Shown here piece after piece: positions 20,278 to 35,225 of a stretch of DNA of 35,239 nucleotides. How positions within the stretch are numbered: the stretch's first letter is position 1; each line of letters begins with the position of its first letter. The translations under genes and the position numbers were made by a program. The notes under the pieces were generated by a model. The model saw only the letters and a program-made list of their open reading frames with translations, did no database searches and was not told the DNA's origin. Location of the stretch: positions 1 through 35,239 of IMG/VR virus record IMGVR_UViG_3300008261_000191; one strand, 5' to 3'. The stretch is from a virus.

Positions 20278-21276
20278 TTATTCTACTTGTTTATTAATAA
20301 TATTAAAAATTACAGATGGGTCAACACCATATTTTTTTGCTAATTGATTAACAACATTGTCATTTTTATCTTGTCTGTATTGACCATATGGATTACCATA
20401 ATTTGATTGCTGATATTTTTCTGTCATAGGCAATGGTGCGCCTTGTGGTGCTAATACAGTTGCACCTGAATATTGTTCGTATTCTACTGAACCAACTGAT
20501 TGTCCTGTTTTAATACCAGCTTTTGTATTAATTAAATCTGCTGAATAAGCATCTGTAGGAACTCTAAATCCTACTTTAATTCTATATTTATCATTTGCCC
20601 AATCAGTATCTATTCTTTCAGCACTTTTATTTTCTTCCCAAGTTTTATCTAAATAATCCCATGCACCAAGAATACTTCTTTCTATATTTAAATCTTCTGC
20701 TTTATCTTCATCAATTTCTAATTCAGCAATCATATAAGGAATTGACTTACCTGTTTTTGGGTCTTTAACTAATTGTATATTACTATATACATTTTTTAAA
20801 TCATATTCATTAGGTGAAATTCTTAAACCCTTTCCATCGTTCATGTTAATAAACATTTCAGAATTTAATTTTCCACTCCAACTACCATCAACATTTTCTT
20901 TTAATCCCATAACATCTAAAGCTGCTCTTTGAACATCTTTACTTAAAGGATTAGAACCAATTATAATTTTTCTTTCTCTATTTCCTTGTTGATCTTCCCA
21001 AGTAGTATGTCTTATGTTTTGTTCTGAAAAAGATAATTTATCTCCTGTCAATGCCATTTGCCATACAGGTGCAAATAAATTAGCTTTATTTAAAGCTGAT
21101 GAATATTTACCATTTTTATCACCATACATTCTTTCAATACCTTTCCAATCAAAATCATCTATACCCCACCATAAATTAGTAAAACCATCACCTCTATTAG
21201 CTTTATTTGCTCTTTCTCTTGCAATCTCTGGACTTTGACCTTCAGCTATTAAAGCTGCTTCTAATTCAGCAGTAGA
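20278..21276 (-). CDS. Virion cargo/ejection protein, 3' part (frame-broken)
   Basis: The open frame extends 49 codons upstream of the first ATG (21129) to an in-frame TGA at 21277-21279. Those codons look fully protein-coding (for example AALIAEGQSPEIARERANKA and LWWGIDDFDWKG) and contain no ATG, GTG or TTG. This indicates that the segment is the continuation of the upstream gene in the -1 frame rather than an independent gene. From ATG 21129 the product would be 283 residues; fused to the upstream part it would be about 489. The C-terminal half has a Gln/Tyr/Asn/Gly-rich segment (about residues 230-250 of the 283) and ends in a small helical domain. It sits between the lysozyme-bearing protein and the polymerase, so it is probably an internal virion protein ejected with them. 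The family is not recognised. Confidence 0.65.
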   Translation of the reverse strand, partial: STAELEAALIAEGQSPEIARERANKANRGDGFTNLWWGIDDFDWKGIERMYGDKNGKYSSALNKANLFAPVWQMALTGDKLSFSEQNIRHTTWEDQQGNRERKIIIGSNPLSKDVQRAALDVMGLKENVDGSWSGKLNSEMFINMNDGKGLRISPNEYDLKNVYSNIQLVKDPKTGKSIPYMIAELEIDEDKAEDLNIERSILGAWDYLDKTWEENKSAERIDTDWANDKYRIKVGFRVPTDAYSADLINTKAGIKTGQSVGSVEYEQYSGATVLAPQGAPLPMTEKYQQSNYGNPYGQYRQDKNDNVVNQLAKKYGVDPSVIFNIINKQVE

Positions 21277-21746
21277 TCACCTTGCATTACAGTAACTGAT
21301 GTTTTTTTAATTAATTTTCCTTCTGATAAATCTTTTGCATATGCATCAATAATGTTTTTATTATATAATGCATTATTATATTCTTGTGAATTTAAAACTG
21401 AATTTTTATAATCATTTAAAGTTTTAGCACCACCTGTTAAAAAAAATCGTTTAACATCACCACCATTTTCTTTAATGCCCTGATATACCATTTGTTTAGC
21501 TTGTTCTTCAACACTTTTAACTCTTTCTATATCTACATCGGAAAATTTGTTGATGTCTTGTCTAACAGTATTTAAAAAGTTTTCAGTAGCTTCTTGATTT
21601 TTAGCTTGCTCTAATGCTCTTTGTTCAGCCCTTCTTTCTAATTCGGCTTGATACTGAAGATTTTTATCGGCTTGTGCAACTTTAGTTTGATAGTTGCTAT
21701 TACCAACAATCTGATTAAAAAGATTTACATCTAAGTATTGATTCAT
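21261..21746 (-). CDS. Virion cargo/ejection protein, 5' part (frame-broken)
   Basis: This 161-residue frame is strongly helical. Residues about 25-55 look like a Glu/Gln/Arg/Ala coiled coil (LERRAEQRALEQAKNQEATE), followed by further helices. It ends GDLLLN and then TAG, the only TAG stop of any gene in the window. A coding-looking frame in -1 overlaps its last codons, starting right after a TGA at 21277-21279, and continues into the 3' part. Inserting one T to read GAT TCT would join the two smoothly (GDSTAELEAAL). It is therefore best read as the N-terminal half of one roughly 489-residue protein. Whether this is a sequence error, a real mutation or programmed frameshifting cannot be told here. 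Confidence 0.65.
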   Translation of the reverse strand: MNQYLDVNLFNQIVGNSNYQTKVAQADKNLQYQAELERRAEQRALEQAKNQEATENFLNTVRQDINKFSDVDIERVKSVEEQAKQMVYQGIKENGGDVKRFFLTGGAKTLNDYKNSVLNSQEYNNALYNKNIIDAYAKDLSEGKLIKKTSVTVMQGDLLLN

Positions 21747-21807
21747 AATTTTATATATCAGATTCTATAAATCTGCTCTAAATTAATAATTTTCAAAATT
21801 ATATATG
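21747..21807 (-). promoter_or_regulatory. 61-nt AT-rich gap with inverted repeats
   Basis: This is one of the two widest gene-free stretches in the cassette, lying between the lysozyme-bearing protein and the cargo gene. It contains a small hairpin (CAGATT/AATCTG, 5-nt loop, 21759-21775), a 17-nt AT palindrome (21786-21802) and one TAATTTTG match to TAnnTTTG (21794-21801). No U-tract terminator follows the hairpin. It may hold a weak promoter or an RNA-processing site, but such motifs are common by chance in DNA this AT-rich. Confidence 0.3.
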
Positions 21808-24800
21808 TTATTTTTTTAGAAATCTACTAAAAATATTTTTATTATCATTTTGTTTATTTTGTTCTTTTTCAGTAGCAATTTCTTCTTGTGCTTTTATAAT
21901 TTGTTCTGAAGTTCCACCCATATTTTTTACTAATGAAACATTATACATTTGATTTGCACTTTGTTCATTTTTTAATTGTTGATTCATTAACTTTTGATAT
22001 AATGAACTTGGATCTTCATAGTTTTTGTAATAAGAAATGTTATCTTTTATTTTATTAAATGTAGCACCAATTAATCCTGCTTTTAATGCTTGATTTCTTG
22101 CAGCAGGTTCAAAAACATTATTATTCCAAATCTTTTGAGTATATTCTTCATCTTTACTCAACCAATTAGAATAGTCAGTTATATTTTGCCTTCTTTGTGC
22201 AGCATCCATTGCTGTTAATTTTAAATCAGCATCATATTTCTTTTCTGCAGCACCTTGCAATGAACCTAATACAGCTTGTCCTGATGTACCATATCTACCA
22301 ATTAAAGCTACATTTGTTGCATATGTTCTTTCTGATTGTCTTTGATATAAATCTCTTTCAGATTCAGATAAACCAACATTTTGTCTTGCTTTTAAAATAT
22401 CTGTTTGTGCTACCCATGCATCAGATTTCTTTTGTTGTGGTAATGGTTTAGAAGCTTCATTATATGCTAATGCCATTCCTGTCATATCTAAAACAGTATT
22501 CCAACCACCAAGTTTATTAAAAGTTTCAACTAAACCTGATTGTTCTCTTTCATTATCTCTATCTGCTAAAATACTTTTTACTTGTGCATCAGACATTAGA
22601 GAAACAACATTATTAGTTTTTGTTTTTGTTTCTACATCAATATCTGATATAACATCATAATCTTTAGATTCTTGACCCATTAAATCTTCAAATTGTTTTT
22701 TTCTTTCAGATTGTAATGTTGAAGTCACATCTGTTTCATATGTTTTCCATTTAGCAATATCAGATTCAGGAACATAATCTTTATCTATAAATAAAGGTTT
22801 ATCTTTTTCTATTTTAATATTAAAATTTTTAGGTGGAGTATAAGACATTAAGTTTTTAGCAACATCTTCAGATTTAAATAGATATTTACTTGGGTCATCA
22901 TAAAAACCTGCTGCTGCTAATTTTTGTTCTGTTTCTTTTTGTTGTGGCGTTTTATTTTTATCACCAAATTTAATATCAGTTAATTCACCTTTTGCAGCTA
23001 AATTATTAACAGTTAAATTTTTGTAAACATCATTAATTGGTTTTGTTAATGTTTCAAAAGTTTCTAAATTTTTAGTATACTCATCAGTTGAAATAGAATT
23101 TTTTTGCAATTTTATTTCTAAAGATTTTGATGCTGCTTTTTTTAATTTATCAGATTCTAATTTAATAGAACTTGCAATTTTTTGATCTTGTTCTAATAAC
23201 CAAGTATTGTATCCTTTTAATACTCCTTCTAATTGATTTAAATTTTGATTAGAATATTTATCAAGATATACTATACTTTCACCTTTTTTCTTTGCTTCAA
23301 TTTGTTTAATTAATAAATCTCTATCTGCTTTTGCTTTTTTATATTTAGCATCTTGTTTTGATTCAAAAAAATTTTCTGTTGCAGATTGTTTTATAAATTT
23401 TTCAAATGCATCTAATTCTTTTGTACTATAATTAGAACCTCTTTTTGTAGCTTCTTGATATTTTTTATATTGTTCAGAATAAATTTGTCCTTCAGGATTT
23501 GTTTTAAAACCTTCAGTAATACTTTTATTTATTTCTTCTTGTGTTAAAGGTTTATTGGCTTGTAATGCTTTAATCATAGTGCTATAATTTACTAAAGCTT
23601 TATTACCATATTTATCACCTTCATAATAACTTTTATTAGAATCATCTTGTGGAATAGCCGCCCATTCTGCTGATAATCTTTTTACAAATTCATCTTCATT
23701 AATATTTCCTTTAACATAATCAACTGCACCTCTTTTTTTCAATAAATAATAAAATAACTTATCTTGATTTTCTTTTGTTAAAACAAATGTTTCTGGATTT
23801 TCACCTAAAGCTTTTAATGCTTCATCACCTGTTGAACCAATAATTTGATATGCACCAATAGCTTTATTTCCATGTTTTCTTCTTGCTTCAGCATAAGTCA
23901 TTTTAGTTAAATCTTCATCACCTTTAGATTTAACAACAGAATTATATCCTGCTGAACCAGCTTCTATTTTTAAAATTATTTTTTGTAAATTTTTAATAGA
24001 ATCATTTTTAGCAAGTAAATCAAAATCATTTAATCCTAAATTATTTGTTCCTGATTCAGCATATTGTGGACTTGAATTATTTCTATGATTTATTAATGAT
24101 TGTTTTACAAACTTTCCTAATAATGATAAATCATTTTTTTGTGCTAATTGTTCTATTTTTTTAGTTTCTTTTACTGAAAATACTTCTTCACCACCTTCTA
24201 CTTCTGCAATAACTTTTCCATTTTTATTTAAAACTTTAACTCCACCATCTTTATGACTTGGTGCTGAATTTGGTATTTTACCACCATTTTCAAAAGTAAC
24301 TGCATTTTCAAATGCTAATTCATTTCTTTTATTTTGAGACATAAAATCTTGTTCTTTATATGAATCTTCTTGTATTGCTTGTTCTAATTGATTTAAAGCA
24401 AATTTTGTACCTTCTTCAATAGCTGTTTGTTGTAATAAATCTTTACCACCTGAATTATACCAAGCTTTATTAAATTCAGCAATAGATATATTAGGGTCTT
24501 TAAATTTTAATTTAGATATATAATCTGCAGAAACTTGTCCTTTAGAACCTGATATAACATTTTTAATATTATTGTGTAATAATGCTTGTTGTTTTAATTG
24601 TGCTTCAGTTAATTTAAAAGCTTCTTTAACTGTAGGTTGTGTTACATTTTGTACAACATTACTTGCTTCAGCCATTGGCATTGTAACATCTTTAACAGGT
24701 CCAACATTTGATACTAATGCAGATGTTTCAGTTGCAGTAGATGCTAATGGTGGAATTGGTTTCATTCCTGCTAATCCTGTAGTTGCAGTATTAGTTACAG

Positions 24801-25282: not shown

Positions 25283-28200
25283 TTACATTCGTTTTTGAAT
25301 TCTAAAAATTGAATCTACAGATGTTAAATTAAAAACTTTATTATCTGCATTTTTTATTACTAATTTAAAATTTAAAAAGTTACCATTTAAACGATTTAAA
25401 ATGTTTTTTTCTCTATATGGTACTTTTAGATTACCTAATTTATAATGTGCTCTATTACTTGTGCTATATCCATTATTATTAACTAATTCTTCACCTATAT
25501 TAACTAACTGTTCATTATTGTCAGTTTTTAAATAAAGCTTATCAATTATACTTAATGAATCTACACCAATATTTAAAGAACCAGTATCAAAAATTTTTGT
25601 AATATTTGGATATTTATTAATATTAAAACCTAATAAAGAATAAAATAATTTCTCATAATATTTACCCTTTACAGATTTAGTATGTAAATACAAATCATTA
25701 TTATTTGCATTATAATTTTGTGTCATAAGTTTATTACCATATGAAAATGCAAACTTTGGATAAAAAGTGTATTCACTATGAAATACATTTAAATCTTCAT
25801 TATAACTTATTGTAAGCGCATTAGAAGTACCCTGTAAAGTTGGTTGGTCTGTAATAAGATATTTTACAGTATTATCTGTATAAGGAGGTCTAATTGTAAA
25901 AAACACATCATTGTTTTCATAATCATAATAAGTAATTATACCTGCACCCCAATCAGAATTAGTAGAAATATAATCTTTATTAATTACACTATTTAAATAT
26001 GGTGCAATAAAAGAATGAATATTTCCAATATCCGATAATATATTTAAACCATCTTGACCAAATTTTAATAGTTTTGTTCTTAATGCATCAGCCCAATATA
26101 TTGCTCTATCAGTTGCATAAACACTATATTGATGTTGAGTTCCAAAAGTTTTAGAAATATAATCAATGCCATTCATTAATGTAGGTTCACCTAATGTTAC
26201 TTGCTGACCTTCATTTGCTGAAACTACAGCTCGTTCATTAATTCTTAATTTACCAAATGCATTTCTTTGTATTGAATAAGCATTATTAGCAAGTAAAGCA
26301 CTACCTACAATTTCACCATAAGATGCATCTAAATCAAAATTACTTAATTCTTCAAACTCTCTAAATCTATCAACTTTTTCAGAATAAGGTTTCTTTTCAT
26401 TTGACCAATGCCATCTTGTTGGAAAATCAAACTTAGCTATATAATCACTTGGCTGACTAAAAAAATTATATACATTATGTTTGTGAAACAAAATAGAATT
26501 AACATTAAATGTTTCATTTCTTGGTGGTTTAGCATTACCTCTTGGATAATATATACCATTAGCCATTTTAGTATTAGAAGGATCTTCACCTGCTAAATAC
26601 TTTGTTGTTTTAGTACCAACTGATGCATGAATAGGAAAGTTAGATTTTTCAGCTAACCTCATTGAAAGATTATATTTGCTTTCAATAGGTACATATGCTG
26701 CAACAGAATAGTCATCATGTATATTCATGTCATGTACACTTTCTTCTTCGCTTATGTTTGCAAAATCACCTTCATCATTTAGCCTATTAGAAGGCATTAA
26801 TCTACAATATCCAAAAAAATCTACATAACAATCACCACCAAATACTTCAACATTATTAAATATTTTTCTTCCTGTAGATGTGTTTACATGAACTAATATT
26901 TGAGAATTTATTTCTTGATAATGACCTGTTGTTTCAAAAATATTATTTTGTAAAGCTAACTTACTTAATCCACCATATTGTGCAGATATTTCTCTTTTTA
27001 AATTAACTATTACTTGTCCTGCTCTATATGATGGTGTAGTTCCACTTGCATGATGATCAAATAAAATAAATGGTTTATCTAATTTTGCAAATAATGAATA
27101 AGGAAAATTCATTGCATTTAGCAATTGTTTTTCTTCACCTGTTGCAGAACTGAAAGTAAATGTATTATAATATTTAAATGGATAACTATTATCAGGACCA
27201 CCCATTGAAGAAATCATTGAAAAATATTTAGAACCTTCAATTGGTTTATCCCAACCAACAGACATTAATATATCTATAGAATAAGATTCATTATAATAAC
27301 CTCTTGTAGAATTAGACCATGTTTGACCTGGCTGTTGAAAATATGCTGTATTTTGCTGATTATAAAATTTATGTATATGATGGTCTTGTGTCCAATTTAT
27401 ATATGATTGATTTAACTGACCTGAATATGAACTAAAAGCTGTAGATGCAATTTTAATTTTATCTGTACCTTTATTAATACTTGGTACAGTTTGCGTAATC
27501 ATATAATCAGGAAAATCAATTGTATAATATTGTGGTGCTAATGTAATTAATCTTGATTCATCTGTTTCTTCTCCTTCTGCTGTATCACCACATAAAATAT
27601 CTACAAGTTTTTGATTGTAAAAATTTGAGTTGTATATTTCAAGTGATGGAACCCATGCATTTGGAAAAGGTGCAACAATATTAGTTACAGTACCTTCTTG
27701 ATATTTTCCTCTATAAACGCATTGGTTAATAATACCTTGCATTTTTATAGTTTCGTTAGCTTCATCTCTTGGAACTCTTACAATCTGAAACCCACTAACT
27801 TTATCTTGTATATCAGTAATATCAATACCACTAAACATTACACCCATAGTCCTTGCATAAGCAATATTAGGATATGTACCGCTATATTTTGGCACATTCA
27901 TATATTGGTCTTGTTCTATAAGTAAATCGCTTCCTATAGTGTTAAATTGGTAATTAGTTGATGTAGCAAATTTATAATATGGTTCGCCTGAAGATATATT
28001 GTATACAAAAGAACCTGATGCTATTGTTCCATCTTCACGAAGCCTTTCCCATGTTAATGTAGGATTGCTTGTACTATTATTTTGAAATTGTGATGGAAAC
28101 TTAACATCAGCAAGATGTGTTGCAAATAATGGATTTCCTTTTTTGTCAAAAAATACAATACCAAATCTATATTTTTCATCTCTAAAATATCCAGAATATA

Positions 28201-29452
28201 AATGCTCAACTTGTGTTCCTCTAAAAGTTGTAAAATCGTTTACGATATCATAAGATTCATAAAATGGTACACCTAATTCAGTTGTATATTTTAATCTATG
28301 TGTGTAACTTGTTTTTGCAGTTGAACCACTAATAGGTAATCCATTTGAATTATCTAAAGAATTTATGGAATTATTATCTGATTGAATAGCTCTAAAAGTA
28401 GCTTTTACTTGCAAACCTGACAATACGCTATCAGGTAAAACAAAAACATTTGTTGTTTCAGTATTACCAAGCCATAATCTATTATCTTTTATAAATATTT
28501 CTTTTGCTTTTATAATAGATTCTTTTCTATCAGATATAGTTGTAATTTCTACAGGAACTCCACTATTAGTTATAGAAGAATGTTTAATTACTATTGTAGA
28601 TTGACCATTAATTAATTCATCATAAAATATAGAAGCTGATTCAACTGTGGCATTTGTTTTAGAATATAAAAATGCAACTTGTATAGATTTAAATCTTGTA
28701 TCAACTTTTTCAATTTGTAAATTAATAGATTTACCTGATGGTTGTTCTGTACTACCAAATCCAAACTCATTAGAGTCAGAACTTCCTGAAGGTATATCAT
28801 TTGAATTAATAACAAAATGTCTTGTAACAGGAATCCATGGTGTTTGATAACCATCTTCAGAAACACATCTATATGTATATTGATATTTTCCTGATAACAA
28901 ACTACCATCTTTTGTAACTGATTTTAATTTTATAATTCCAATATTAAAATTAGAACCAATACTCATAGCGGCAACACTTGGTGTTACAGCAGTAAATGTT
29001 CCATTTTCATCTTTAAAAGTAAATGATCTTGGCTCATTATAATCATCTGTAAAATATACTCTATTTAAACTTGAACTTTCTTCTAATGAAACAGCTTTGA
29101 TTCTATATGAAGAATTAAAATTAAAATCTGTAGAAGTATATAATGATGTTTGAGATATTGAATTATTATTTGGATTTAATTTACAAACAATAATTTTTCC
29201 AAAACCTGATGATTCTGAATATAAAAATAAAACAAACTTTGTAGCAAAATTACAATGACCTAAACAAGTATATCCATTAGGTAATGAAGTAATTAAAACA
29301 TTTCCATCTGCATTTTGCCATGATAAAGTACCATTTTCATTATAAAGTAATTTACCATTAATGCTTAAATTATATGTATTACTCTTTGATATTTTTGGGT
29401 CTAAATCATTTGATAAACCACCTTCAAATGAGTTTGTTACTCTTTCAGCCAT
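25283..29452 (-). CDS. Muzzle-like / tail stabilisation protein
   Basis: This 1389-residue protein is mostly beta. Its N-terminal part (FEGGLSNDLDPKISKSNTY) is followed by propeller-like blades. A fibronectin-type stretch (LLSGKYQYTYRCVSEDGYQTPW) lies at about 185-210, and another blade-like motif (SVYATDRAIYWADALRTKLL) near residue 1105. Its length and position, directly after the last ring-like protein and before the ejection proteins, match the large muzzle or stabilisation protein that caps the tail of crAss-like virions such as phicrAss001. Its role would be to close the tail and hold cargo until infection. It overlaps the upstream gene by 1 nt (TAATG) and is separated from the downstream gene by 1 nt, so it is cotranslated with both. 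Confidence 0.7.
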   Translation of the reverse strand: MAERVTNSFEGGLSNDLDPKISKSNTYNLSINGKLLYNENGTLSWQNADGNVLITSLPNGYTCLGHCNFATKFVLFLYSESSGFGKIIVCKLNPNNNSISQTSLYTSTDFNFNSSYRIKAVSLEESSSLNRVYFTDDYNEPRSFTFKDENGTFTAVTPSVAAMSIGSNFNIGIIKLKSVTKDGSLLSGKYQYTYRCVSEDGYQTPWIPVTRHFVINSNDIPSGSSDSNEFGFGSTEQPSGKSINLQIEKVDTRFKSIQVAFLYSKTNATVESASIFYDELINGQSTIVIKHSSITNSGVPVEITTISDRKESIIKAKEIFIKDNRLWLGNTETTNVFVLPDSVLSGLQVKATFRAIQSDNNSINSLDNSNGLPISGSTAKTSYTHRLKYTTELGVPFYESYDIVNDFTTFRGTQVEHLYSGYFRDEKYRFGIVFFDKKGNPLFATHLADVKFPSQFQNNSTSNPTLTWERLREDGTIASGSFVYNISSGEPYYKFATSTNYQFNTIGSDLLIEQDQYMNVPKYSGTYPNIAYARTMGVMFSGIDITDIQDKVSGFQIVRVPRDEANETIKMQGIINQCVYRGKYQEGTVTNIVAPFPNAWVPSLEIYNSNFYNQKLVDILCGDTAEGEETDESRLITLAPQYYTIDFPDYMITQTVPSINKGTDKIKIASTAFSSYSGQLNQSYINWTQDHHIHKFYNQQNTAYFQQPGQTWSNSTRGYYNESYSIDILMSVGWDKPIEGSKYFSMISSMGGPDNSYPFKYYNTFTFSSATGEEKQLLNAMNFPYSLFAKLDKPFILFDHHASGTTPSYRAGQVIVNLKREISAQYGGLSKLALQNNIFETTGHYQEINSQILVHVNTSTGRKIFNNVEVFGGDCYVDFFGYCRLMPSNRLNDEGDFANISEEESVHDMNIHDDYSVAAYVPIESKYNLSMRLAEKSNFPIHASVGTKTTKYLAGEDPSNTKMANGIYYPRGNAKPPRNETFNVNSILFHKHNVYNFFSQPSDYIAKFDFPTRWHWSNEKKPYSEKVDRFREFEELSNFDLDASYGEIVGSALLANNAYSIQRNAFGKLRINERAVVSANEGQQVTLGEPTLMNGIDYISKTFGTQHQYSVYATDRAIYWADALRTKLLKFGQDGLNILSDIGNIHSFIAPYLNSVINKDYISTNSDWGAGIITYYDYENNDVFFTIRPPYTDNTVKYLITDQPTLQGTSNALTISYNEDLNVFHSEYTFYPKFAFSYGNKLMTQNYNANNNDLYLHTKSVKGKYYEKLFYSLLGFNINKYPNITKIFDTGSLNIGVDSLSIIDKLYLKTDNNEQLVNIGEELVNNNGYSTSNRAHYKLGNLKVPYREKNILNRLNGNFLNFKLVIKNADNKVFNLTSVDSIFRIQKRM

Positions 29453-30174
29453 TAAAAGAAATTTTTATTTGGTAAAGGTAATAATTGATGATATATACTT
29501 GCTATATATTCTAATTGTTTAGGGTCTGGCATTTCATCTTCACCTCTTGCTTGACCACATAGCCAATGCCATCTTTTTTCTAATTCAGCATATACATGAT
29601 GAGAAATTTCACCATTTATATATTCTGATAATTTAATTTTCCAAACAATATAAGCAGTAACAGCCATTTGATGTGACTCTCTTATTAATGGAAATCCATC
29701 TTCATCAAGTTCAAATGATAAATAAGCAATTCCTACTTTTGTTCCATCAGGTATTCCTGATAAATTAATATAACCATTATCAATTGACATTTTAAATGTT
29801 TTCATTTCTGTTCCATCGTATCCAAACGCAGTTTGTCTTGATGCATCCATTGAAAACATATTTGTATTATCACCTGATAAATTAGGCGATGTATTATTAA
29901 AAAATCTAAAATCTCGATTTGTAACTTCAGGATATGTATCGCCTATTTTTAAAGCAATAAATTGATAAAAATCTTTTGGTAATTTAACTTGTTTATTTTT
30001 AACTGTTAACTCACACTCATTTCTTTTAAAAGTATCATAACTGCCAATAAACAATTCAGCTTCATATGCCCATTCAATAATATAATCAACTAAATGATTT
30101 ACTTCTTTTAATTGTAAATCTCTAATTACATTAGAAATTATTGTACCTACTTTAATTTTATTTTTGTTGCTCAT
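29452..30174 (-). CDS. Ring / connector protein (P22 gp4-like type)
   Basis: This 240-residue protein has an N-terminal helical part, then the segment VKLPKDFYQFIALKIGD (about residues 60-80), and ends with a Trp-rich helix (RWHWLCGQARGEDEMPDP) and a short LLPLP tail. LP-x-DF strands after a helical start are typical of portal-proximal adaptor and tail-accessory proteins. The C-terminal ARGEDEMPDPKQLEYI segment looks like a conserved crAss-like family signature. It overlaps the zinc-ribbon gene by 17 nt and the muzzle-like gene by 1 nt. The expected role is a dodecameric ring joining portal and tail. Confidence 0.7.
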   Translation of the reverse strand: MSNKNKIKVGTIISNVIRDLQLKEVNHLVDYIIEWAYEAELFIGSYDTFKRNECELTVKNKQVKLPKDFYQFIALKIGDTYPEVTNRDFRFFNNTSPNLSGDNTNMFSMDASRQTAFGYDGTEMKTFKMSIDNGYINLSGIPDGTKVGIAYLSFELDEDGFPLIRESHQMAVTAYIVWKIKLSEYINGEISHHVYAELEKRWHWLCGQARGEDEMPDPKQLEYIASIYHQLLPLPNKNFF

Positions 30175-30339: not shown

Positions 30340-30825
30340 TCAATTATTATATTCAGGATAATCAGCTCCGTATTTAAATATTTTATTAATTAATTTTATT
30401 CTCCACTTCTTTGCAAATTTTATTTTATAATTAATATAACTTATTGGTTTATACCAATTTAAAAAATAAACATAGCCATCAGTTTTAGATAAATCAATAT
30501 TTTTAACAAATGTTAATTTATTATTTACTTTAATAAATCTATAACTTTTAGGAACATAAACATCAGGTATAATTTTTCTAATATTTAACTCGCCAAACCT
30601 ATAAAGTTTTACAGTTGCATATTTGTCTATTATATGTGTAAAGATAATAAAAAAATAGGCTCTTGTAATTTTTACAAACTCATTATATTTAATTGCTTTT
30701 ATATTGTTTTTTTTGCAATCAGCATATAATTCATCTTTAATATTTAAGTATACAGAAAGATTAGTATCAAAGCCATTACTTTGTACTTTGTACAGCTTCT
30801 CCCACACCGTTGTTTGTTTCATCAT
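30340..30825 (-). CDS. Uncharacterised basic protein of connector module
   Basis: This 161-residue protein is rich in Lys, Ile, Tyr and Phe. A hydrophobic helix-like stretch near residues 50-65 (TRAYFFIIFTHIIDKY) is followed by RFGELNIRKI and a basic C-terminal half. ATGs at 30825 and 30822 are both possible; either overlaps the end of the preceding connector gene by 47-50 nt. It uses the only TGA stop seen in the window. Neither the family nor a function is recognised. Its fixed place between two ring-like proteins suggests a structural or assembly factor. Confidence 0.6.
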   Translation of the reverse strand: MMKQTTVWEKLYKVQSNGFDTNLSVYLNIKDELYADCKKNNIKAIKYNEFVKITRAYFFIIFTHIIDKYATVKLYRFGELNIRKIIPDVYVPKSYRFIKVNNKLTFVKNIDLSKTDGYVYFLNWYKPISYINYKIKFAKKWRIKLINKIFKYGADYPEYNN

Positions 30826-31456
30826 TTGGCATTCTAATTAAATTAAATTCTTGACTTAAAATTAATTTAACCATATCAGCAATCATATATTCTGGAAATG
30901 GATATTGTGAATCATCTGTAATACAATCACCACCACATTCATCAGCTACTTTAGATGCTTCAAATGGATCAGCAAATAATCCTCTTACATTAATATATTG
31001 TATATCTTCATTTATAGGTTCTAATATATGAATATAATCACCTATCATATATGCATTTTTTAAATGCTTGCCAAATTTTTGAAATTTACTAAACGATGCA
31101 ATTTCAGGTTCTTTGTAAATTATTGGTGTTATTTTATCAGCTAAACCAATAAATGTTAATGCTTTTTGTTTTGGTAATTCAACAAGTTTTGGAATTTTTA
31201 CTCTTTTAATTTTTCTTCCAAAAACAACTTGTGTACTATCAGCAACATCTATTGTTTCTAATTTTAAAGTACCTAAATCTTGAATCAATTGTCTATCAAT
31301 AGGTTTGTTACTTTTAAAATATTCATAGATTAATTTTGAACGATAGTAATTAATCCAAAATCCTACTTGTCTTTCGCTTAACCTATCATCATCAGAAGAT
31401 ATACCACCTCTAATAATATTTATTATGTTAAACTTTAATTCGTTAAATGTTGCCAT
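30776..31456 (-). CDS. Ring / head-tail connector protein
   Basis: This protein of about 226 residues starts at ATG 31456 (MATFNELKFN). A longer frame from 31498 would have to read through the terminator hairpin and is rejected. An N-terminal helical region (LSERQVGFWINYYRSKLIYEYF) leads into a beta region and a C-terminal motif (QYPFPEYMIADMVKLILSQE) typical of adaptor rings in Bacteroidota podoviruses. A Cys-x3-Cys pair lies nearby (ECGGDC). The start follows the U-tract of an intrinsic-terminator hairpin by only 5 nt, so its expression must depend on read-through or on processing. It likely forms one ring between portal and tail. Confidence 0.7.
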   Translation of the reverse strand: MATFNELKFNIINIIRGGISSDDDRLSERQVGFWINYYRSKLIYEYFKSNKPIDRQLIQDLGTLKLETIDVADSTQVVFGRKIKRVKIPKLVELPKQKALTFIGLADKITPIIYKEPEIASFSKFQKFGKHLKNAYMIGDYIHILEPINEDIQYINVRGLFADPFEASKVADECGGDCITDDSQYPFPEYMIADMVKLILSQEFNLIRMPNDETNNGVGEAVQSTK

Positions 31457-31461
31457 AGTAT

Positions 31462-31496
31462 AAAAAAAAAGGGTAGGCAGAAAATTCCACCTACCC
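31462..31496 (-). terminator. Intrinsic-terminator hairpin between connector genes
   Basis: On the minus strand GGGUAGGUGG pairs with CUGCCUACCC over 10 bp (two G.U wobbles) around a 6-nt loop, followed by nine U. On the plus strand the two wobbles become C.A mismatches and there is no U-tract, so the signal is oriented for minus-strand transcription. It is unusually GC-rich for this DNA. The next ATG begins 5 nt after the U-tract. Confidence 0.85.
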
Positions 31497-31519
31497 AAAT
31501 TTAAAAATTTAATTTGAAA

Positions 31520-32134
31520 TTATTCTTGTTCTTTAATCTCATTTTGCTGAAAAGCATATGTTTCTTGACCAATTGAAAATAATAGTTTTCTTACAGCTAT
31601 ATTAACAATTTCATCATGAGTATGCTCAGGCAAATTGAGAACATCATTAGGTTTATTTGTACCATCAATAACATTTGGTTTTTTTAGATATGTTAATGTC
31701 CATGCTTTTGCAGCAGTTTCACTTTTTATTAAAAAACCTAATGGTGTTGTAATGTACAACGGAAACTTATTTGATGCTTTGTTAAAAGGGTCTTTTAATG
31801 TTTTGTAATAATCATCAATTTGTATAGGTTTAATAGATACATCTTCTATTTTAATTGAATTACATTCATATATTTCAAATACACCTACACAGGCTAATGC
31901 AAAATAAAAATCAATAGGCAAAGGAATTAAGGCTGTATTTCCATTTTTATATGTAATTAATGTCCTTAAATCTTCTCTGCGTTTTTCATTTTTTTCAAAC
32001 TCTGAATACCTACTTTTAACAAACTCATTTACAGCCATATTCAAAAAGATGTCTTTTTCCTGTGGTTGAAACCAAGGTAAGTTATGCTTATCAAGCAAAA
32101 CATCAATTCTTTCGTGCATCTGTATATGATTCAT
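31520..32134 (-). CDS. Connector / head-completion protein
   Basis: This 204-residue protein is helical at the N terminus (IDVLLDKHNLPWFQPQEKD, then NMAVNEFVKSRY). A strand region with ALIPLPIDFYFALACVG (about residues 70-90) follows. The LP-x-DFY motif also occurs in the 240-residue connector, suggesting a shared adaptor fold. The start shares its A with the stop of the upstream gene (TAATG), indicating translational coupling. It is the last gene before the terminator hairpin. The expected role is a portal-proximal ring or head-closure protein. Confidence 0.65.
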   Translation of the reverse strand: MNHIQMHERIDVLLDKHNLPWFQPQEKDIFLNMAVNEFVKSRYSEFEKNEKRREDLRTLITYKNGNTALIPLPIDFYFALACVGVFEIYECNSIKIEDVSIKPIQIDDYYKTLKDPFNKASNKFPLYITTPLGFLIKSETAAKAWTLTYLKKPNVIDGTNKPNDVLNLPEHTHDEIVNIAVRKLLFSIGQETYAFQQNEIKEQE

Positions 32135-32826: not shown

Positions 32827-34197
32827 TTACGCAAAAGTTAACATACCACAAGAAAGAGGATTTCTTACAACTATACCTGATTCTGATAAAACTTCACAAG
32901 TGAATGAATCACGAGAGTTAGAAGCTATCATTGATTTTTGGTCAAATGGATTTACCATACCAGGGATATATTTAACAATCATACCTCTATCAATTCCTGC
33001 AGCACCTTTTACTTTTACCTCAACATTGGCAACACCATTAGTTACACCCATATTCATAAATACCATTCTGTAAGATTCTTTAGGGAATCCAGTAGTACCA
33101 TTCATATCAAAATGTAAGTTTGGATCATCAAATAATGGACAGTGTACTAATGTAATTTTATGTCCAAGAGCAACATAAGTTGTAAAGTTTGCACCTACAG
33201 TTACATTTCTTCCTGCATCTAAATCATAAGCAAGTGAAGAACCACTTTGAATATGATTAACCATGGCTTTATGGAAAGCTAATCTACCAGCAGTTCCTGT
33301 AAATACCATAAACTCATTATTTTTTACACCTGCATTAAGAGATAGTTGAGCAATAAATTCTGCAATTTTTGCTTCATCTAAAGCATTAGTTGTAGTATTA
33401 TAAGTAGCAGTATTAGCAGAACCTATTTGAGCAAGAATACCATCACCTGATAATAATTTTTTACCACCTTGTGTAATTTGTGCTACACCTGAAGTATTTG
33501 CAGAAGTCTTACCATACCAACGAGATAATTCTAATTGATATAAATATTCTTCCATTACTAAATTTTGGTCAGTAAAATACCAAAGTCTTTGACCATTGTT
33601 TTCAATCCAAGTAATATCAGTTAAAGCAGAACCTGAAATTGATTTAGCCTTACGAGTAATGGTTAAGTAATTTACATACCAATCTGGGTAAACATGGTTT
33701 TCAAAACCTTGTGTTGAACTTTCAGGAAACATTGAACCAACAGTACCAAGCTTAGAACCTGCTAAAATTGTGTTTGTATTAACACTTGGTGCAGTTCCTG
33801 CAACAAATTTAAAACCATAAACATATGGCGCAGAAGTAGGAACGGTTGTTACAACAGCAACATGACCAACTGCAAATTTTACAACATCATATAAGTTTAG
33901 GTAGTTTTCATCTAAAGTAAGAGAAAATTCAACATCTAAACCAGGAGTTGCATTAGCACCTTGAACAGTTACAGTTGATGGTCTATTTAATCTTCCAAGA
34001 ATAGCCCATTTAAATGAGTTATCACCAATTAATTCTTCTTTAGCAAATCTTCCTGTACCTTCAAGAAAATAAGATAAAGAGTATTGAGGATATTGTCTAA
34101 TTAAAGCCTTGCTAATTTCAGGATATTTAAGCAAGTTAGTTACAAGAGCATTTTGCTCAATTGTTTCTTTTCCGTATGTACCAGAGTAATATTTCAT
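32827..34197 (-). CDS. Major capsid protein (HK97-fold type)
   Basis: This 456-residue protein builds the icosahedral shell. It has a helical N-terminal arm (TIEQNALVTNLLKYPEISKAL), a Gly/Ala/Thr-rich middle, and typical shell-protein segments such as EFMVFTGTAGRLAFHKAMVN and TLVHCPLFDDPNLHFDMNG before a C-terminal KYIPGMVNPFD region. Length and layout are close to crAss-like capsid proteins (usually about 490-500 residues), slightly short. The preceding gene is a likely scaffold, as expected for capsid operons. No protease gene is visible in this module. The ATG 34197 start follows an A/T-only leader without a Shine-Dalgarno sequence. Confidence 0.82.
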   Translation of the reverse strand: MKYYSGTYGKETIEQNALVTNLLKYPEISKALIRQYPQYSLSYFLEGTGRFAKEELIGDNSFKWAILGRLNRPSTVTVQGANATPGLDVEFSLTLDENYLNLYDVVKFAVGHVAVVTTVPTSAPYVYGFKFVAGTAPSVNTNTILAGSKLGTVGSMFPESSTQGFENHVYPDWYVNYLTITRKAKSISGSALTDITWIENNGQRLWYFTDQNLVMEEYLYQLELSRWYGKTSANTSGVAQITQGGKKLLSGDGILAQIGSANTATYNTTTNALDEAKIAEFIAQLSLNAGVKNNEFMVFTGTAGRLAFHKAMVNHIQSGSSLAYDLDAGRNVTVGANFTTYVALGHKITLVHCPLFDDPNLHFDMNGTTGFPKESYRMVFMNMGVTNGVANVEVKVKGAAGIDRGMIVKYIPGMVNPFDQKSMIASNSRDSFTCEVLSESGIVVRNPLSCGMLTFA

Positions 34198-35217: not shown

Positions 35218-35225
35218 CAAATATA
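35218..35225 (-). promoter_or_regulatory. Candidate TAnnTTTG promoter element
   Basis: The minus strand reads TATATTTG, matching the Bacteroidota -7 consensus TAnnTTTG, 20 nt before ATG 35197. The 42-nt region to the window edge contains no gene. The expected -33 element would lie outside the window. It is the same octamer as at 8330-8337. Confidence 0.35.

Follow-up and report, generated by a model that had tools for sequence, protein, structure and literature searches.

How would the tail genes of a phage be transcribed when a strong terminator-like hairpin stands only a few nucleotides before the first of them? This question is raised by a stretch of 35,239 nucleotides (IMG/VR virus record IMGVR_UViG_3300008261_000191), called the window below, which is a fragment of an environmental crAss-like phage, related to crAssphage of the gut. 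How phages of this kind control their late genes has been little mapped so far, and our literature search, covering mainly open-access papers, found no report of the element described here at the junction before the Ring-2 gene.

Gene context of the hairpin

Two gene runs meet at this junction: a head run composed of a 327-aa gene, the capsid gene, a 221-aa gene, and the Ring-3/4 gene, and a tail run of Ring-2, Ring-1, muzzle and on. The hairpin sits between the last gene of the former and the first gene of the latter, and the Pfam matches of both neighbors bear out a sequence-only reading of this DNA, which had placed it between two connector genes. The ATG at 31456 is likely to be the Ring-2 start, because the CrAss_Ring_2 match begins at residue 11 and the N-terminus M-(A/P)-T-(L/F) recurs in most relatives. 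The features around the junction are as follows.

32827–34197, minus strand: major capsid protein gene, further upstream within this gene run (Pfam Crass_capsid, E 7e-42)
31520–32134, minus strand: Ring-3/4 gene, 204 aa, last before the hairpin (Pfam CrAss_Ring_3_4, E 8e-10)
31471–31496, minus strand: putative terminator hairpin, 11 bp (stem call, folding, and strict scan; position kept in relatives)
31462–31470, minus strand: U9 tract (sequence; most relatives have one, a minority short or displaced)
30776–31456, minus strand: Ring-2 gene, 226 aa, first after the hairpin (Pfam CrAss_Ring_2, E 5e-31)
29452–30174: Ring-1 gene (Pfam CrAss_Ring_1)
25283–29452: muzzle protein gene (Pfam)

A terminator-like hairpin directly before Ring-2

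The hairpin, GGGTAGGTGGA-ATTT-TCTGCCTACCC (31496–31471, minus strand), consists of a stem of 11 pairs, including six G–C and two G·U, and a tetraloop; the GC-rich stem with nine U described in the sequence-only reading is present, with 11 bp in place of the 10 bp given there. On the 3′ side, the stem is followed on the minus strand by U9 (31470–31462), ATACT, and the ATG at 31456, so that the ATG is 5 nt from the end of U9 and 14 nt from that of the stem. On the 5′ side, the Ring-3/4 stop codon ends at 31520 and the stem begins 23 nt further on, within a gap of 63 nt between the two genes. The minimum free energy (MFE) of the hairpin is −18.3 kcal/mol (z, −3.3) on the minus strand, whereas the plus-strand fold is weaker (−13.3 kcal/mol), because the two G·U pairs become A–C mismatches there; the strand specificity previously ascribed to these wobbles is thus confirmed by folding.

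A strict scan, requiring a stem of 10 or more perfect pairs (six or more of them G–C) and at least seven T in eight, returned one site on the minus strand of the window and none on the plus strand, and none of 200 dinucleotide shuffles of the complete minus strand contained such a site. The hairpin with its U9 also ranks top among the terminator-like sites of the whole window, in good agreement with the earlier claim of a strong terminator placed 5 nt before a structural gene. With a stable G+C-rich stem and a U tract directly after it, the element is, judged by sequence, probably an intrinsic terminator in a variant arrangement that corresponds to neither the T7 nor the T4 case considered below. 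A nucleotide search of known phages with this region of the window gave no match, and an E. coli-type promoter scan of the window gave no more hits than shuffled sequences and was uninformative.

A precedent is found in phage T7, in which genes 11 and 12 are expressed only through read-through of Tphi (PMC5592923); Tphi is at 24210, 18 nt before gene 11 at 24228. As in T7, the putative terminator of the window lies after the capsid region and close before the ATG of the first tail gene. The main alternative to the explanation we propose below, and the model of the sequence-only reading, is a T7-like leaky terminator without a local promoter, at which a fixed read-through fraction would supply the lower-copy tail proteins. 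We consider it a serious possibility that is nevertheless somewhat doubtful. The strong hairpin with U9, after which the window has no promoter box, is in line with it, and the upstream stop codon, 23 nt away, may lower termination efficiency via ribosome coupling (PMC4824070).

Conservation of the hairpin among relatives

A search of viral contigs with the capsid protein gave 80 loci, down to 50% identity, in 53 of which the Ring-2 start could be placed; the terminator scan covered the DNA after the capsid gene. Under the strict definition, a terminator site was found directly before Ring-2 in 44 of the 53 loci, and a hairpin is still there in the other nine. The U tract is good in two of these nine, and weak or displaced in seven (L022, L025, L027, L037, L039, L041, and L042). 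At the other intergenic junctions of the scanned stretch in the same loci, no strict terminator was found; a few additional matches fall within genes. Separately, L026, L028, L030, L032, and L035 have a strong conserved hairpin, GGATGATGAGGG...GCTCTCATCGTCC, followed by TTTTGTT, which is located ~180–210 nt past the capsid stop codon, within the coding region of the next gene.

Each of the 32 representatives with mutual similarity below 85% has a hairpin directly before Ring-2, with MFE z-scores of −2.3 to −7.5 against shuffles and the stem usually ending 12–19 nt before the ATG. The stems are unrelated between lineages (GGGTAGGTGG, AGCTCGC, GGTGGTGG, AAAGCCTGTG, and others) and cannot all be aligned together; covariation was counted in one sub-lineage only, where paired changes occur at columns 15–35 (T–G/T–A to A–T) and 17–33 (G–C to A–T). 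Conservation of the position together with complete turnover of the sequence argues strongly for selection on the structure itself. The comparison with relatives that the sequence-only reading had named as a check thus shows the position of the hairpin kept, with compensatory or complete change of its sequence.

Among cultured phages, phi14:2 has a hairpin with TTTTATTT ~19 nt before the ATG of its Ring-2 gene g074 (Ring-2 profile, E 4e-27), and long hairpins precede Ring-2 in crAss001, DAC17, cr112_1, and cr116_1 (MFE of the gap, −24 to −30 kcal/mol). The U tracts at Ring-2 are mostly short in the Steigviridae. Scans of viral contigs with Ring-2 proteins gave only four loci for the crAss001 query and one for the phi14:2 query. 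No terminator hairpin was found directly before Ring-2 in the Suoliviridae (cr10_1, cr1_1, cr50_1, and cr118_1), FpV4, and ProJPt-Bp1; in cr10_1, cr1_1, and cr50_1, a short gene run leads up to Ring-2, and a terminator is located ~16–22 nt ahead of its first gene.

Because the U tract is weak or displaced in 7 of the 53 loci and mostly short in the Steigviridae, the hairpin may not always terminate. It could instead serve mainly as a 5′-leader or an RNA-stability or translation element of Ring-2, as would be consistent with its being kept in these seven loci and in several Steigviridae with short U tracts, and with a hairpin–ATG spacing of about 12–19 nt in most loci. We regard this role as improbable, since a canonical U tract is kept in most lineages, the start codon region takes no part in the stem, and the stems, at 11–15 bp, fall short of the length of a classical RNase III site. 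RNase III processing was judged unlikely on this ground.

The position inside the late gene cluster, where a read-through switch would be useful, is also compatible with a regulated attenuator, relieved late by a phage antiterminator or an alternative RNA fold. However, the local ensemble contains no competing fold (the centroid is the MFE structure), inspection of the gap in the different lineages revealed no conserved antiterminator sequence upstream, and a search of Rfam with the element matched no family; an attenuator is thus very improbable.

Candidate promoter boxes at the junction

The late genes of crAss-like phages have been attributed to the host RNA polymerase (PMC10136315). Sigma-A promoters of Bacteroidota carry the box TAnnTTTG (TAHHTTTG) at −12 to −5, with 4–5 nt to the start (PMC6847099, PMC9723704, PMC7366714), and little or no −33 signal, that of F. 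johnsoniae being unclear (PMC6847099). In the phage group studied here, the density of TAnnTTTG is 5.10/kb on the sense strand of gaps, as against 0.74/kb on their antisense strand and 0.78/kb in coding sequence. The box is therefore enriched ~7-fold in gaps, on the sense strand only. The gaps of the window (469 nt) contain four sense boxes and no antisense box (expected, 0.41; P about 0.0009). Candidate promoter boxes of the window are as follows.

35218–35225, minus strand: TATATTTG box, 20 nt ahead of the 327-aa gene, the one upstream of the capsid gene; candidate head-operon promoter, conserved in most relatives
31496–31503, minus strand: TAAATTTG, match to the sigma-A −7 box TAHHTTTG; candidate promoter (sequence; group-wide sense enrichment)
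28330–28337, minus strand: TATATTTG, 16 nt before the 233-aa gene; candidate late promoter
21794–21801, minus strand: TAATTTTG, before the 161-aa gene; candidate late promoter

At the Ring-2 junction of the window, TAAATTTG lies at the 5′ base of the hairpin and includes the stem's first G. Its predicted start is near 31491, inside the 5′ arm, which would give a 35-nt leader; RNA from this start folds at −6.2 kcal/mol, as compared with about −17 kcal/mol for the full hairpin. The presence of TAAATTTG in the gap could be due to chance, and its conservation in L010/L011, the sole closely related lineage, counts as weak evidence. We also considered a promoter downstream of the hairpin of the window and rejected it, since no TAnnTTTG occurs in these 14 nt.

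Many relatives carry the box directly past the U tract, ahead of the ATG, and in nearly half of the environmental loci examined, the box or its A-ending variant is found exactly at −12 to −5 from the Ring-2 ATG. Taken literally, this position would put +1 on the A of the Ring-2 AUG, i.e., predict a leaderless mRNA. TAnnTTTR occurs near the Ring-2 ATG in 18 of 34 clusters at 90% protein clustering (mean of shuffles, 1.7), and the strict box in 5 of 19 clusters at 70% (null, 0.14) and 1 of 6 at 60%; as the relatives are not independent, kinship inflates these counts and cluster-based significance is overstated. In six of the seven Steigviridae sequences examined (crAss001, cr112_1, cr116_1, DAC17, L128, and L129), the box is in the 3′ arm of the hairpin. 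No −33 element was seen with the boxes. A hairpin but no box is found at the Ring-2 junction of L018, L022, L025, L036, L037, L039, and phi14:2.

The conclusion of the sequence-only reading that the site leaves no room for a promoter, and hence that read-through is obligatory, is not supported as stated. A box needs 8 nt plus the 4–5 nt to the start. Many relatives accommodate it in the space between U tract and ATG, most of the examined Steigviridae have it within the 3′ arm, and that of the window sits where the 5′ side of the stem begins. These boxes also weigh against the T7-like leaky terminator: the site in T7 has no promoter and is read by the phage's own RNA polymerase, whereas here the host polymerase is likely to act and a sigma-A-type box is often present, as in many relatives, most Steigviridae examined, and the window, albeit there at the 5′ base of the hairpin rather than after it. 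On the other hand, the chance of a box in a single 63-nt gap is about 5% and some lineages have no box, so that read-through stays alive as an explanation for the lineage of the window.

Terminator-only junctions, without TAnnTTTG, are found in crAss001 behind its capsid gene and ahead of gp37 and the TPR gene region (L121, 8952–9022 and 12462–12532), with equivalents in L124 and L123, and are candidates for T7-like leaky terminators. Because crAss001 has them, read-through junctions seem to exist in the order, a point in favor of the leaky-terminator alternative.

A proposed superposition of terminator and promoter

The best explanation for the junction, which we hold to be slightly on the probable side from the sequences compared, is an operon-boundary terminator between head and tail genes, combined with a nested or abutting host sigma-A promoter. 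The terminator would mark the border between the head operon (327-aa gene to Ring-3/4) and the tail operon (Ring-2 onward), and the promoter would be so placed that new transcripts begin within or past the hairpin. Transcripts of the head operon would carry both arms of the stem, so that the hairpin folds and they mostly stop at the U tract. Those from the local promoter would lack all or half of the 5′ arm, could not form the full hairpin, and would carry the tail genes. In the window, TAAATTTG would direct a start at ~31491, and in many relatives the box past the U tract would produce a leaderless Ring-2 mRNA. In nearly all relatives with a box, the predicted start is past the beginning of the 5′ arm, and the full hairpin would thereby be lost. 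The closeness of hairpin and ATG would be explained without read-through, because the local transcripts would start past the beginning of the 5′ arm.

A comparable loss of a hairpin is known from T4 gene e and I-TevI, of which the late-promoter transcripts lack the 5′ part of a hairpin carried by upstream transcripts (PMC3014915). The predicted starts in the window and in nearly all box-bearing relatives would act in the same way; however, the T4 hairpin hides the ribosome binding site, whereas the stem of the window ends 14 nt before the ATG. With Bacteroidota sigma-A promoters, the boxes share the sequence, the sense orientation within a gap, and the spacing to the predicted start, but here they are superposed on or abut a terminator, and many relatives are predicted to be leaderless. 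The operon-boundary terminators of crAss001 likewise consist of a hairpin and a U tract in late-region gaps, some with TAnnTTTG; terminator and box are separate at its other boxed boundaries and overlap at Ring-2.

More generally, we put forward, as a tentative proposal falling short of an even chance, that a gap of ~60 nt conserved in crAss-like phages superposes the head-operon terminator on the sigma-A promoter of the tail operon, with the start past the beginning of the 5′ arm, and that the tail-operon mRNA of many environmental lineages has no leader and starts right at the Ring-2 AUG. If this is true, one short element marks the border of the head and tail operons across several lineages, and a precise start site, inside the hairpin or at the AUG, is predicted for crAss001 and DAC17, comparable with phi14:2. 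The tail operon would then provide a natural example of a late operon without a leader, in a phylum that has few such mRNAs; leaderless mRNAs or those with very short leaders account for ~4–6% in B. thetaiotaomicron and F. psychrophilum (PMC9723704, PMC7366714).

Other observations

Elsewhere in phi14:2, TAnnTTTG boxes are found 5 nt before the ATG of g070 and g068 (L119, 21232–21239 and 24434–24441), and predict almost leaderless mRNAs. In the window, the 161-aa and 283-aa ORFs (minus strand, 21261–21280) look like one gene broken by a frameshift, either a sequencing error or a real shift: the downstream frame is open from ~21279, and the sequence that leads up to its first ATG, at 21129, is coding-like.
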